The notes beneath the pieces were generated by a model, which saw nothing but the letters and a program-made list of their open reading frames with translations, made no database searches and was not told the DNA's origin. Below, one piece after another: positions 55,751-60,651 of a DNA stretch of 64,000 bases. Origin of the DNA: Halothiobacillus sp. (GTDB taxonomy: Bacteria > Pseudomonadota > Gammaproteobacteria > Halothiobacillales > Halothiobacillaceae); assembly GCA_024635755.1 (NCBI GenBank), contig JAGXIF010000029.1, positions 1 to 64,000 of the forward strand, in the 5' to 3' direction. Position 1 is the first letter of the stretch. Every line of letters starts with the position of its first letter. Made by a program: the position numbers and the translations under genes.

Positions 55751-57763
55751 ATGCGTCTGCCGGTCAATATCTTCCTGTGGACCTTTACCGCCACACTGGT
55801 GCCGCTGGTGCTGCTGGTCTGGGGCGTGACCAGCTACAGCGAGCAGCGCTTCCAGGAAGAGATCACTCGCGAGATCGATGAAAACATCGACTCGGTGATC
55901 GGCGAGATGAGCAATCGGATGCGCTACGAGCGGCAAGTGGTCGAGGGCATCGGTCAGGCGCAGGAAATCCAGACGATGCTCAACGCGTTGATGGCATCGT
56001 CGGTGGGCATTCGACACCCCGAGCTGACCTCGATGCGGATCAACGCCAACCGCTTTCTCGCCGGCCTGCAGCGCACCGTTCCCGGGCTGGGCAGTATCCG
56101 CATTCTGGATGCGGCCGGCAACACGATCATCAAGGTGACCCTCGGCCGGGTGGCCTCGCCGGCCTTCGAGAGCCTCGGCCAGGTCAACTACGTCGAGGAG
56201 GAGTTCGACAACGAGGCCTTCCTGGAGCGACTACAGAGCCTGCCCTCCGACCAGATCAGCTTCATGACCCTGCCCATGGCCTTCGGTGACGCCCTGCCCG
56301 ACCGGGAGCCCAGCACGCTCTACGCCGTTCGGCCATTGCGCAATGTCGATGACCGCACCGCCGGCTACGTGGTGGTCAACACCTTCGGCGAGCACCTCGA
56401 CCAGATCCTGTCGTTCTCCCCCCGCCCGCGCGACGGCAAAATCATGATCATCGAACACAACCCCGGGCTGCCCGATCGCGATGGGCTGGTGCTCTACGAT
56501 GACGAGCGCAACCTGGGATTCATCTCGCCCTTCGAAAACGGCTCGGTACCCGCCGAATACAATGCCCGCCGCATCGACGATGGCGCCTTCTGGAACGCGG
56601 CCGTGGCCGAGTCGAACGGCGTCCACCTCGACGCGGACGCCGGCTCGCGCTACTACTATCAGGAATATCACCCCTACCCGCAGAGCCTGACGTCGTGGTT
56701 CGTGGCGTTCAAGTTGCCGGCCGACATCACCAGCGCCCCGTTCCGTGACATTCGCCTGAGCCTGTTCGGTTTCGGCCTGCTGGCCCTGCTCATGAGCCTG
56801 TTGCTCGCCGGACTGGGCGCACGCCACTTCGCCCGGCCGATCACCCGCCTGTCCCAGTCGCTCAAGCAGTTTGCCGACGGCCAGCGTGACCAACCGATCC
56901 CGGTCGACTCGAGCACCACCGAGGTGCGCCAGTTGCAGACCTCGTTCCGCTACCTGACCGAACAGCTCGCCAGCGAGGCCCGTCGGCGCGATCGGGCCGA
57001 GAAGAAGGCCCTCCAGCAGGCCAAGCTGGCCTCCATCGGCGAGATGGCGGCCGGGATCGGCCACGAGATCAACAACCCGCTCAACAACATCCTGACGCTC
57101 ACGCGCCTGATCGAACGACAGATCCCCTCGGAAGACCATGCCACGCACGAGGACATGCGGGATCTGCGCGCCGAGGCGCTGCGTGCCAGTCGCATCGTCC
57201 GCGGCGTCATGAACTTCGCCCGCCAACTGCCCCCCGAGCATGAAACCGTCGAACTGGCCGACTGGCTCGAGGAAGTCGTCGACCGCATGGAACCCGAGGC
57301 CATGGAGGCCGACGTGCACCTGGCCCTGCTCAGCGCCACGGCCCGGTGCCAGGCCGAATTCGACCCCGCGCAGATGGAGCAGGTCGTAACCAACCTGATT
57401 CGCAACGCGATCCACGCCAGCTCGGTGGGCGGACATATACTGATACAGGCCGAGTGCCTCGCGGACAGCATCCGCATCGAATTTCGCGACGAGGGCAGCG
57501 GCCTGCCGCCAGACCTGATCGATCAGATATTCGATCCGTTCTTCACCACCAAGGAAGTCGACAGGGGCACCGGGCTGGGTCTGTCGATCAGCCTCGGCAT
57601 CGTGCAATACCATGGTGGCGAACTGAGCCTGGCAAACCGCCGCGATGCCGGCGAGCCGGATGCCAGCGGCGTGATCGCACGCGTGACCCTACCCAAGAGC
57701 AAGGCCCGGCCGCGCGTGATCCAACAGAACGACACACCCAATCCCCCGACGGCCAGACCATGA
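55751..57763 (+). CDS. Membrane sensor histidine kinase (NtrB/DctB-like)
   Basis: Sensor of a two-component system, 670 residues. Membrane helix at about 8-28, a large periplasmic domain (about 30-335), a second helix (about 338-358), HAMP, then a HisKA domain with the phosphoacceptor H438 in GEMAAGIGHEINNPLNNIL and a HATPase domain (NLIRNAIHAS, FRDEGSGLPPDL, GTGLGLSISLGI). The stop overlaps the start of the NtrC-type regulator (ATGA). Position beside a sigma-54 promoter for soxYZ suggests that it senses a sulfur-related or redox signal, which is inference. Confidence 0.93.
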   Translation: MRLPVNIFLWTFTATLVPLVLLVWGVTSYSEQRFQEEITREIDENIDSVIGEMSNRMRYERQVVEGIGQAQEIQTMLNALMASSVGIRHPELTSMRINANRFLAGLQRTVPGLGSIRILDAAGNTIIKVTLGRVASPAFESLGQVNYVEEEFDNEAFLERLQSLPSDQISFMTLPMAFGDALPDREPSTLYAVRPLRNVDDRTAGYVVVNTFGEHLDQILSFSPRPRDGKIMIIEHNPGLPDRDGLVLYDDERNLGFISPFENGSVPAEYNARRIDDGAFWNAAVAESNGVHLDADAGSRYYYQEYHPYPQSLTSWFVAFKLPADITSAPFRDIRLSLFGFGLLALLMSLLLAGLGARHFARPITRLSQSLKQFADGQRDQPIPVDSSTTEVRQLQTSFRYLTEQLASEARRRDRAEKKALQQAKLASIGEMAAGIGHEINNPLNNILTLTRLIERQIPSEDHATHEDMRDLRAEALRASRIVRGVMNFARQLPPEHETVELADWLEEVVDRMEPEAMEADVHLALLSATARCQAEFDPAQMEQVVTNLIRNAIHASSVGGHILIQAECLADSIRIEFRDEGSGLPPDLIDQIFDPFFTTKEVDRGTGLGLSISLGIVQYHGGELSLANRRDAGEPDASGVIARVTLPKSKARPRVIQQNDTPNPPTARP

Positions 57764-59118
57764 ACAGCAACGCGCCTACCGACAAACAACCCGTGATCGC
57801 CTTCGTCGATGATGACGAACGCGCCTCTGACCTGTTCGCCCGCTACGCCCGCACCGAGGGGCTGACGGTGCACGGCTTCCAGTCGGTGGAAAGCGCCCAG
57901 GATTGGCTAACCGAGAACCCCGTCGACCTGGTGATCTCGGACCTCAAGATGCCGGGCATGAACGGCCTGGATTTTCTCGAATGGCTGCGTGGCCAGTGGC
58001 CGTCGCTGCCCGTGATCCTGATCACCGGCTACTCGACCATCGACAACGCCATCCAGGCGTTGCGCCTGGGGGCGAGCGACTTCATCAAGAAGCCCTACGA
58101 CCCCGAGTCGCTGATCGAGTTAGTCCACCGCCTGCTGGGGGACGAATCGGCTCCGCCGCCGACCGCGATCGACTCGACCGAGCGGGCCATGCTGGGCGCC
58201 TCCCCGGCCATCGAGGCGACCTACCGGATCATCGACAAGATCCGCGACGTGCGCATCAACGTGATGATCGAGGGCGAGTCCGGCTCGGGCAAGGAACTAG
58301 CCGCTCGCGCCACCCACGAGCGTTCGGACTTCGCCCACACCCCTTACATCGTGATCGACTGCGGCGCGCTGACCGACACCTTGTTGGAGAACGAGCTGTT
58401 CGGTCACGAGAAAGGCGCTTTCACCGGGGCGAACGCCGCCAAGACCGGATTGCTGGAGGTCGCCAGCGGCGGCACCGTCTTTCTCGACGAGATCGGCAAT
58501 ATCTCGGATGCCATGCAGGTCAAGCTGCTGCGGGTAGTCCAGGAGCAGGAAATCACCCGGGTTGGCGGCGTGCAGACCATCCCCATCGACGTGCGCTTCA
58601 TCGTCGCCAGCAATCGCAATCTCGCCGAGATGGTCCGGCTGGGCGAATTCCGCCACGACCTGTATCACCGGCTCAATGTCGTGCGCCTACAGATGCCGCC
58701 GCTGCGTGAACGGCGCACGGACATCCCCGTGCTCGCGCAGCATTTCATCGACGAGTTCGCCCGCCGCTTCCACCGTCCGGCAAAGGGGCTGACCGAACGG
58801 GCGCAAAAGGCCATCCTCGACTACCCGTGGCCGGGTAATGTGCGGGAACTGAAGAACGCGATCGAGCGCGCCGTGGCCCTGTCCGACAGCGAGGAAATCG
58901 ACCTCGAACTGGGCGGCGAGGCCACCGCCGCCACCGGCGGCTCCATCGAGACCACTGCCGCCATCGATGCCGACCACCCCACCCTCGAGGAGCTCGAGCG
59001 GCGGTACATCGAGAAAACGCTCGAACACGCCGAGGGCAACCGCGAGAAGACGGCCAGCATTCTCGGCATCAACAAGTCCACCCTGTGGCGCAAGCTGCAG
59101 GGCTACGAGAAGCGCTAG
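57760..59118 (+). CDS. NtrC-family sigma-54-dependent response regulator
   Basis: 452 residues. A receiver domain has phosphoacceptor D61 (DLVISDLKMPG). An AAA+ domain follows with Walker A GESGSGKE, the sigma-54-contacting loop GAFTGA at 219-224 and GGTVFLDEIG. A C-terminal Fis-type helix-turn-helix (NREKTASILGINKSTLWRKL) completes it. It activates RNA polymerase holding sigma-54 from upstream sites. The soxY promoter immediately downstream has a correctly spaced -24/-12 element, the obvious candidate target. The ATG at 57760 overlaps the kinase stop; the longer frame upstream is a shadow. Confidence 0.95.
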   Translation: MNSNAPTDKQPVIAFVDDDERASDLFARYARTEGLTVHGFQSVESAQDWLTENPVDLVISDLKMPGMNGLDFLEWLRGQWPSLPVILITGYSTIDNAIQALRLGASDFIKKPYDPESLIELVHRLLGDESAPPPTAIDSTERAMLGASPAIEATYRIIDKIRDVRINVMIEGESGSGKELAARATHERSDFAHTPYIVIDCGALTDTLLENELFGHEKGAFTGANAAKTGLLEVASGGTVFLDEIGNISDAMQVKLLRVVQEQEITRVGGVQTIPIDVRFIVASNRNLAEMVRLGEFRHDLYHRLNVVRLQMPPLRERRTDIPVLAQHFIDEFARRFHRPAKGLTERAQKAILDYPWPGNVRELKNAIERAVALSDSEEIDLELGGEATAATGGSIETTAAIDADHPTLEELERRYIEKTLEHAEGNREKTASILGINKSTLWRKLQGYEKR

Positions 59119-59139
59119 CCGGTCATGCCTCGGCGTTGG

Positions 59140-59185
59140 TTGCTGCAATGTTTGCCGAGCGTACATTGCATATTGCAATCTGCAA
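59140..59185 (+). promoter_or_regulatory. TTGCA-N3-TGCAA repeats upstream of soxY (candidate activator sites)
   Basis: Three dyads are seen: TTGC-T-GCAA (59140-59148), TTGCA-TAT-TGCAA (59166-59178) and TTGCA-ATC-TGCAA (59173-59185), the last two overlapping. An extra ATTGCA half-site lies at 59165. They stand about 55-95 nt upstream of the -24 element, a usual position for NtrC-type enhancer sites. Confidence 0.65.
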
Positions 59186-59235
59186 TCCGCGCCAGACCTC
59201 GCGCATACACTTTGCGTTTCAACGACTTGCATAGT

Positions 59236-59252
59236 TGGCACGCCCCATGCCT
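59236..59252 (+). promoter_or_regulatory. Sigma-54 promoter of soxYZ
   Basis: TGGCACG (59236-59242), CCCC, then ATGCCT (59247-59252) match TGGCACG-N4-TTGCW, with GG (59237-59238) and GC (59249-59250) exactly 12 nt apart. The predicted transcript would begin near 59262, with a leader of about 34 nt to the soxY ATG. Confidence 0.8.
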
Positions 59253-59295
59253 TATCTAGGGCGTGGACAACCACACATTAACGAGGAGTTAAGAT

Positions 59296-59766
59296 ATGCA
59301 AACCAAGCGTCGCGTATTTCTGAAGGGCAGCCTCGCTGCCAGTGCTGCTGGCCTGGCCGTTGGTGCCGGTCTGCTTTCCCCGCGCACTGTACTGGCCGCC
59401 GATTGGCCGCAGAGCGCATTCGATACCGAAGGCATGGACAACGCCATGGACGAGCTGTTCGGTTCCCATGACGTTGCCGATTCCGGCGACATCAGCGTCA
59501 AGGCCCCGGACATCGCCGAGAACGGCGCTGTGGTTCCGGTCACGATCGAGTCGTCCATTGCTGGCACCAACAAGATTGCGATCATGGTCGCTTCCAACCC
59601 GACCCCGCTGGTTGCTTCTTTCGACCTGATGGGTGCCAACCCGTTCGTCTCCACCCGTATCCGTATGGGTTCGACTGACAACGTGACTGGCGTGGTTCAA
59701 GCTGGTGGCAAGCTGTACAAGGCCGGCAAGGAAGTGAAGGTAACCATCGGTGGCTGCGGCGGCTAA
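59296..59766 (+). CDS. soxY: Thiosulfate-oxidation carrier protein SoxY
   Basis: Periplasmic carrier that holds sulfur intermediates on a C-terminal swinging arm during thiosulfate oxidation. 156 residues. The twin-arginine signal (KRRVFLKGS) exports it folded, usually together with SoxZ. The C-terminus GGCGG carries the sulfur-binding cysteine. A GAGGAG site precedes the ATG. Base composition is lower in G+C than its neighbours and codon use looks optimised, suggesting high expression. The pair stands alone: soxA, X, B, C and D are not in the window. Confidence 0.96.
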   Translation: MQTKRRVFLKGSLAASAAGLAVGAGLLSPRTVLAADWPQSAFDTEGMDNAMDELFGSHDVADSGDISVKAPDIAENGAVVPVTIESSIAGTNKIAIMVASNPTPLVASFDLMGANPFVSTRIRMGSTDNVTGVVQAGGKLYKAGKEVKVTIGGCGG

Positions 59767-59823
59767 TCAGCCTCTACGACCGAAGTCATTGAATACAGAC
59801 AGATAATCCAAGAGGTATAGATT

Positions 59824-60129
59824 ATGTCTACTATCCGCATGCGTATTTCCCCGGCTGGCGACGTTCTTGACGTGAAGGCCCTGGTCCGTCACCCGATGGA
59901 ATCCGGCAACCGCGAAGACAAGTCCACCGGCGAGAAGATCCCGGCGAACTACATCCAGGTACTCAACGTTGAGGTCAACGGTGAGCAGGTGATGCAGGGC
60001 AACCTGTCAGAAGCTGTCTCCAAGAACCCGTACATCAACATCAAGGTACCGGGCAAGAAAGGTGACGAGGTCACGATCTCTTGGACCTCCAACACCGGTG
60101 AGTCCGACGAGGCAAGCCAGGCTGCCTAA
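59824..60129 (+). CDS. soxZ: Thiosulfate-oxidation complex protein SoxZ
   Basis: Partner of SoxY, 101 residues with an immunoglobulin-like beta sandwich and no signal peptide; it is expected to be exported with SoxY by the Tat path. Conserved features are the start STIRMRI, VKALVRHPMESGNR and VPGKKGDEVTISWTSN. AGAGGT stands before the ATG. It follows soxY by 57 nt and ends at a strong terminator. Confidence 0.96.
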   Translation: MSTIRMRISPAGDVLDVKALVRHPMESGNREDKSTGEKIPANYIQVLNVEVNGEQVMQGNLSEAVSKNPYINIKVPGKKGDEVTISWTSNTGESDEASQAA

Positions 60130-60156
60130 GGCAGACTGACAGCGCACTTGATCGAC

Positions 60157-60184
60157 AAGCCCGCCATCCGGCGGGCTTTTTTTT
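60157..60184 (+). terminator. Rho-independent terminator of soxYZ
   Basis: AAGCCCGCC (60157-60165) pairs with GGCGGGCTT (60170-60178) around ATCC, within an eight-base T-run (60177-60184). Confidence 0.92.
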
Positions 60185-60201
60185 GCATCCGGTTTTCTGG
60201 C

Positions 60202-60651
60202 TCAAGGGGTGGGCGCCTCCAGCCAGAAGGTCACCGGTCCGTCGTTGACCAGTTCCACCTGCATGTCCGCGCCGAAACGTCCCGTAGCCACGCCCCCTGG
60301 ATGCGACTCTCGCAAGGCGGTGACAAACACGTCGAACAGCCGGCTGGCATCGGCCGGATCGGCCGCAGGGGTAAAACTGGGACGGTTGCCGCGCTGGGTA
60401 TCGGCCGCCAGCGTGAACTGCGGCACCGCCAGCACCCCGCCACCCTGATCGCGGACCGACCGATTCATGCGCCCGACCTCATCGGGGAACACCCGGTAGT
60501 TCATCACCCGCTCGGCCAACCGCCGTGCCTGGTCCGGGCCGTCGCCCTGCGCCACTCCCACCAGGCAGACCAGGCCCGGACCGATCTCGCCGATCGACTC
60601 GCCGCCCACCCGCACGCATCCATATGTCGCCCGCTGGATCAACGCAATCAT
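60202..60651 (-). CDS. dtd: D-aminoacyl-tRNA deacylase
   Basis: Removes D-amino acids and glycine mischarged on tRNA. 149 residues from [11 protein letters not shown]. The cross-subunit motifs are present as [10 protein letters not shown] (canonically SQFTLAAD, so Ser is Pro here) and GPVTFWLE. The start overlaps the pip stop (ATGA). The Ser-to-Pro change lies close to the active site and is worth noting. Confidence 0.92.

Follow-up and report, generated by a model that had tools for sequence, protein, structure and literature searches.

How is a soxYZ pair controlled when it lies apart from the other sox genes? The question is raised by a 64,000-nucleotide (nt) stretch of contig JAGXIF010000029.1 from Halothiobacillus sp. 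(assembly GCA_024635755.1; hereafter the window), in which, from position 55751, genes for a sensor histidine kinase and an NtrC-type regulator are followed by 177 nt of intergenic DNA, soxY, soxZ and a terminator, and soxX, soxA and soxB are grouped on another contig (C49) of the draft genome (2.23 Mb, 51 contigs, 88% complete). Judged from sequence, a conserved sigma-54 circuit at soxYZ is real, has a second target in the genus and is backed by a class-wide regulator family. We consider it very likely that the circuit is a two-component switch for soxYZ, in which a sensor and its phosphorylated regulator would act through a doublet of upstream activating sequences (UAS), DNA looping and activation of the soxY promoter. 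At 83–84% identity, the kinase has named matches in Guyparkeria hydrothermalis R3, in Guyparkeria sp. SCN-R1 and WRN-7 and in two metagenome-assembled genomes, on which basis we take the source genome to be Guyparkeria.

An initial annotation had recognized a kinase and an NtrC-type regulator with an intact GAFTGA motif, and domain searches bear this out (Table 1). Both proteins are intact by domain content, their genes overlap by 4 nt, and the regulator combines a receiver, an AAA+ domain with GAFTGA in the translation and a Fis-type helix–turn–helix (recognition helix GINKSTLWRKL), which is the plan of a bacterial enhancer-binding protein. The partner sigma-54 is present as one rpoN match in the source genome. 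The periplasmic domain of the kinase weakly resembles dCache_1, below the Pfam cut-off, and a sequence search of the PDB with the sensor domain returned no solved-structure relative at E up to 1. SoxY and SoxZ pass their TIGR04488 and TIGR04490 cut-offs and, because a terminator and then a gene on the minus strand follow, they are the only genes of the unit, as had been claimed. Upstream of the kinase lies bioF, divergently oriented.

Between regulator and soxY, a sigma-54 element starts 117 nt past the regulator stop codon; the exact GG-N10-GC spacing reported for it initially stands, and the distance of 118 nt does not. Three TTGCA-N3-TGCAA-type dyads had also been proposed. Two of them are exact and overlap by 6 nt with a common middle half-site, and thus make up a single element, in which three half-sites recur every 7 nt, and not a tandem array of separate dyads. 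The third was rejected as a dyad and kept as a half-site, since only its TGCAA is invariant across 10 Guyparkeria genomes. Exact TTGCA-N3-TGCAA occurs at two places in the 2.23-Mb genome, both before soxY, and at none for the reversed-pattern control, so the pair is not a product of chance. A site resembling that of integration host factor (IHF), for which we take the consensus to be WATCAANNNNTTR, is found at one mismatch or fewer in 36 of 52 UAS-to-promoter intervals, where letter shuffles of these related sequences lead one to expect 5.2.

In an alignment of the intergenic regions of the 10 Guyparkeria genomes, 17 of 20 doublet positions and 9 of 16 positions of the sigma-54 element are invariant, as are 6 of 50 from doublet to promoter and 0 of 17 in each stretch flanking the third site. 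The leader 3' of the promoter is also conserved (34/44), which means that conservation extends beyond the proposed sites. The gene order, dyads and -24/-12 element, on whose persistence in close relatives the initial annotation had staked its reading, are indeed kept. Of the 25 loci fetched from the order, 21 show kinase, regulator and soxY in succession; the remaining four lie on contigs that stop inside the regulator or no more than about 400 bp past it, and in one of these genomes, G013, regulator, soxY and soxZ are on another contig. Of 22 Halothiobacillaceae intergenic regions, the window's and 21 others, 18 contain both exact dyads and 21 a sigma-54 element at two mismatches or fewer. 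The kinase itself, full or partial, is found in 26 of the order's 27 genomes. Only generic kinase matches come from the remaining one, G006, which is 64% complete. The matches in G013, G021 and G023 each contain one stop within the aligned stretch. Some regions vary: of the three g4 regions, one has a single TGCA-N3-TGCA-like dyad and the others a pair spaced by about 23 bp, and G021 has one near-exact dyad and GT for GC at -12. In Halothiobacillus loci L050–L052, about 1.4–1.6 kb separates regulator and soxY, and the dyads and promoter stay directly before soxY.

Across the order, exact dyads alone number 78 in the 27 genomes, compared with 10 for the reversed pattern, and a composite of TGCA-N3-TGCA, 48–78 nt and TGGCA-N7-TGC gives 45 matches in 23 of them, the reversed control giving none. 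Thirty-four matches fall at soxY promoters (some counted twice because of the overlapping doublet, and one, in G014, with soxY itself cut off by the contig end), 10 at a cytochrome c promoter, one in each Guyparkeria genome, and one is a stray (G008:C18:292536). The cytochrome c was identified by protein match in seven of these genomes (the source genome, G001, G002, G003, G004, G007 and G008); G005, G009 and G010 were matched by promoter sequence alone. In the source genome the second target encodes a c-type cytochrome of 112 residues (G000:C45:13481-13813, minus strand; with its promoter, G000:C45:13481-13984, the same as L283:13481-13984, minus strand), preceded by a dyad with one mismatch, GTGCAAGATGCAA, and a sigma-54 element. 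One might guess that it serves as an electron acceptor for the Sox system. Because the same dyad and sigma-54 element stand before this gene, the circuit is not strictly dedicated to soxYZ, contrary to what had been proposed. Control of soxXAB by the same system was rejected, as the 400 bp upstream of soxX hold neither a TGCA-N3-TGCA dyad at one mismatch or fewer nor a sigma-54 element (GG fixed, up to four mismatches). Further targets in the source genome were likewise set aside: apart from the soxY and cytochrome c sites, dyads with one mismatch (17 sites; 14 for the reversed control) amount to background.

Where the soxY transcript is predicted to begin lies a small putative hairpin, whose stem is kept with another loop in Halothiobacillus (GTGG-TATT-CCAC). 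In each of two of the four pairs, one sequence has both sides changed, and the covariation term is -0.02; with covariation this weak, we do not claim the structure. By eye, the cytochrome c leader could form a hairpin too (CCGAGC-N8-GCTCGG).

Table 1. Features of the soxYZ locus, with positions counted in the window
Feature	Position	Strand	Remarks
Sensor histidine kinase	55751..57763	+	670 residues; HAMP, HisKA (H438), HATPase_c; membrane-bound by sequence
NtrC-family response regulator	57760..59118	+	452 residues; Response_reg, Sigma54_activat (AAA+), HTH_8
Degenerate upstream site TTGGTTGCTGCAA	59136..59148	+	8/10 positions match; only TGCAA half (59144-59148) conserved
Putative UAS dyad 1, exact, TTGCATATTGCAA	59166..59178	.	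Conserved in place in most relatives
Putative UAS dyad 2, exact, TTGCAATCTGCAA	59173..59185	.	Middle half-site common with dyad 1
IHF-like site TTTCAACGACTTG	59217..59229	+	Between UAS and promoter; 1 mismatch to WATCAANNNNTTR; position read by eye
Sigma-54 -24/-12 element TGGCACGCCCCATGCC	59236..59251	+	GG-N10-GC spacing exact
Predicted transcript start	~59259-59262	+	Placed by spacing only
Small 5' hairpin GTGG-ACAA-CCAC	59263..59274	+	At predicted soxY transcript 5' end; weak covariation
soxY	59296..59766	+	156 residues, GGCGG end; TIGR04488 166.5 bits (cut-off 125), passes
soxZ	59824..60129	+	101 residues; TIGR04490 116.3 bits (cut-off 76), passes
Intrinsic terminator after soxZ	60157..60178	+	Best of 4 terminator-like sites found; 0.9 expected

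Searching 369 Gammaproteobacteria genomes with a sensor-domain profile gave matches in 56, four of which are Guyparkeria. The matches listed outside Guyparkeria comprise 46 strong ones (E up to 4.9e-41) and 28 weaker ones, and we fetched loci for 40 of the former and 14 of the latter, plus G197. A soxY match lies downstream of the regulator in 26 of the 40 strong loci, and another seven end inside the regulator or within 400 bp after it. In the weaker group, a DsrE-like frame lies downstream in all 13 loci (of 14) with a regulator, recognized by eye in 12 and by match in L224 (= L248); Pfam DsrE was confirmed in all three tested, and soxB (by eye or match) or soxYZ is nearby in 5 of the 14. 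Paralogous kinase–regulator pairs before a small exported DsrE-like protein were seen in L223–L233, L235, L236 and L288. Elsewhere, contigs break inside soxY soon after the regulator (L185, L186, L187, L189, L190, L191, L210, L216 and L219), and two soxY matches stand in succession in L196, L200, L202, L207, L208 and L209; duplicated soxYZ copies may lie behind the assembly breaks.

The site travels with this family. Within 420 bp after the regulator, an exact TGCA-N3-TGCA is present in 24 of 36 strong, soxYZ-type loci (0.9 expected) and in 11 of 13 weaker, DsrE-type paralogue loci (0.24 expected; L288 excluded), and dyad and sigma-54 element occur together in 22 of 36 (0.035 expected) and 9 of 13 (0.01 expected), with expectations taken from Markov-resampled sequence and loci that are related and so not independent draws; L204, L211, L217, L181 and L234, in which the regulator is cut, unclear or absent, were left out. 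The recognition-helix motif [NDSG][KR][ST]TLWR[KRW]L is shared by all 41 strong and all 14 weak members compared (five Halothiobacillaceae rows, being of the strong group, are left out of the latter count) and occurs in none of six other activators of the source genome and in neither of two copies of TspR, a sox activator to which we return below.

A composite written for the class, which has TTGC at -12 and so misses the window's own promoter (ATGC), returned 38 sites in 33 of the 369 genomes, with two sites for the reversed control. Twenty-three of these 33 genomes carry the sensor domain: the composite is present in 23 of 52 sensor-positive genomes outside Guyparkeria and in 10 of 313 negative ones (Fisher p ~8e-15, relatedness ignored). 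Thirty sites were read as loci, of which 10 stand before soxY (L243 and L256 being so called by a SoxY-like leader peptide only), three before a DsrE-like gene and two before a YeeE/YedE-type sulfur transporter (L253 has a confirmed Pfam Sulf_transp match, and L252 was assigned by its similar start); several of the other 15 look unrelated. For two of the soxY sites, L261 and L262, the 1.5 kb upstream contain no regulator match, which points to a regulator acting from a distance; L263, a soxY site with only 277 bp upstream, is uninformative on the regulator. The distances from dyad to promoter (31, typed by hand, with overlapping-doublet loci, including the window's, left out) are best phased at a period of 11.3 (R 0.76, reached by 0 of 2,000 jitters; R 0.62 at 10.5). 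We treat this phasing as no more than a hint, since the period was chosen after the fact, each pair contributed both of its dyads and the genomes are related. Tentatively, and with somewhat less than even confidence, we suggest that this unnamed sigma-54 family is a common Sox switch of Gammaproteobacteria, with a soxYZ branch and a DsrE-like paralogue branch, a helically phased TGCA-N3-TGCA UAS and a Cache-like sensor for a periplasmic sulfur species, possibly the SoxYZ load itself; the supply of the carrier would then follow demand, apart from the catalytic soxXAB unit.

From domains, gene order, promoter spacing, conserved UAS and the class-wide association of site and regulator, we infer phosphotransfer, binding, looping, activation, transcript start and signal. 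The kinase would read a periplasmic signal, for which a reduced sulfur compound is the best guess because a periplasmic Cache-like sensor adjoins soxYZ, and, with paired domains intact, would phosphorylate the regulator. The conservation of the doublet, some 60–70 bp upstream of the -24/-12 element, and the match of site and recognition helix suggest that the regulator binds there. From there it would contact sigma-54 RNA polymerase via DNA looping, perhaps assisted by IHF, and its GAFTGA ATPase would melt the soxY promoter. The output would be soxYZ mRNA and, in Guyparkeria, also that of one small exported cytochrome c.

Several observations weigh against this reading. The window's own -12 departs from TTGC, in 12 of the 36 soxYZ-type loci no exact dyad follows the regulator, and seven of the 40 strong loci have further sequence yet no soxY match, one of them also without a regulator match. 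The sensor gives only Pfam matches below cut-off and has no sequence relative in the PDB, and the signal is a guess. In the two genomes judged Acidithiobacillus-like, the regulator that adjoins sox is not the family member. Furthermore, the composite patterns were written after promoters had been seen (the soxY and cytochrome promoters for the order, many class promoters for the class), and their hits at those promoters are in part built in, though the rarity of hits elsewhere is not.

Three other explanations compete with a two-component switch at soxYZ. It has been suggested in print, in the available part of a Guyparkeria pangenome paper, that sox genes are constantly expressed, and the complete Sox pathway is described for this genus (PMC6504805, as far as its available text goes); soxYZ could then be constitutive and the sigma-54 element vestigial or minor. 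Against this stand the conserved footprint of doublet and promoter in 10 Guyparkeria and a simple consensus scan of 59050–60250, in which the plus strand gave no sigma-70-type site and the minus strand one (0.5 expected), so that a sigma-70 promoter for soxY was rejected. We regard constitutive expression as very unlikely, slightly more so than the other two. A repressor or nucleoid protein could instead bind the dyads, the neighbouring regulator acting elsewhere. Binding by the regulator is predicted from sequence, and an overlapping doublet would be unusual for a Fis-type dimer; however, the site tracks the regulator family across the class, at soxYZ- and DsrE-type loci with a common recognition helix, and is tied to sigma-54 elements at both. 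We therefore think another binder very unlikely.

It would be equally surprising, in our judgement, if the window system were simply the ortholog of TspS/TspR, which has already been described, in the portions of the sources available, as the sigma-54 two-component control of the sox-II cluster of Acidithiobacillus caldus (PMC6335251, PMC10531304, PMC12194929), with TGTCCCAAATGGGACA as the TspR site (PMC6335251). In favour of orthology, a sigma-54 two-component pair lies upstream of sox in both, and the title of the 2017 primary paper names 'some chemolithotrophic bacteria', which may include Halothiobacillus. Yet TGTCCCAAATGGGACA is absent from the source genome at one mismatch or fewer. Among the 369 genomes its exact form occurs in G052 and G197 only (at one mismatch, in 14 genomes, with reversed-control matches in similar number). 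In G052 and G197 it sits immediately 3' of a regulator gene, and the frames that come next follow the published order soxX-soxY-soxZ-soxA-hyp-soxB; a match supports SoxY in each of the two genomes and SoxZ in G052, and the remaining frames were assigned by position or eye. Given this site and order, we take both as Acidithiobacillus-like. Their TspR is 38–40% identical to the window regulator, whereas their second regulator, a member of the weaker group, is 49% identical; L232, a remoter family member, stands at 39%. In a maximum-likelihood tree built from 62 regulators, with L005 left out and L190 omitted as too short, a 100/99 branch sets the strong and weak groups together apart from the rest, including the two TspR rows, which were identified by site and cluster order. 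Within this family the strong members form a clade (97/98) and the weak ones are not recovered as one; the other activators of the source genome have uncertain positions owing to long branches. The one TspS compared, from G052, aligns with kinase residues 362–627 only, the catalytic part, and carries a weak sCache_3_2 match, whereas three scanned kinases of the window family carry weak dCache_1 matches, all below Pfam cut-offs. With sensor, clade, recognition helix and site all different, orthology is disfavoured and the window pair, as far as these comparisons reach, is not TspSR.

If the two-component switch at soxYZ is as we propose, the supply of the SoxYZ carrier would be under signal-gated sigma-54 control, separated from the soxXAB enzymes. 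The locus argues against always-on expression of the carrier subunits and offers a precise site. With a defined UAS, regulons may become readable from the genomes of sulfur oxidizers, encompassing soxYZ, cytochrome c, DsrE-like proteins and a YeeE/YedE-type sulfur transporter.

The pair has the same kinase and activator domain plan as NtrBC, AtoSC and ZraSR, but NtrC, AtoC and ZraR equivalogs were rejected on their NCBIfam cut-offs (412.9 of 558.6, 391.7 of 714 and 359.5 of 760 bits), and none of the best 25 of 108 curated NCBIfam families reaches its cut-off with the regulator. SoxR (ArsR type) and related repressors control sox genes, as the window system would, but they do so as repressors, with neither sigma-54 nor a kinase. 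In the available portions of the literature, sigma-54 control of thiosulfate sox genes is described only for TspSR, besides a 2024 remark on lucinid symbionts of the Thiohalomonadales (PMC11237559), and neither the TGCA-N3-TGCA site nor the window regulator family is described. The symbiont locus is alike in having a separate soxYZ with adjoining sigma-54 regulator and histidine kinase genes, and possibly belongs to the same family; that paper, in the part available, gives it neither a promoter nor a binding site nor a function. With these published accounts, the initial claim of a distinct kind of sox control is not supported. TspS/TspR shares the logic and position of the window pair, which probably works in the same way, but its sensor has no detectable similarity to the window sensor domain, its recognition helix reads ISRKQLRTKM rather than INKSTLWRKL, its UAS is TGTCCCAAATGGGACA rather than TGCA-N3-TGCA, and its target is soxXYZA-hyp-soxB rather than soxYZ alone. 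The window system is thus best placed, on present comparisons, in a regulator family that many Gammaproteobacteria carry and to which TspS/TspR does not belong: control of sox by a sigma-54 two-component system is already known, and what differs here is the family, its sensor and its site.

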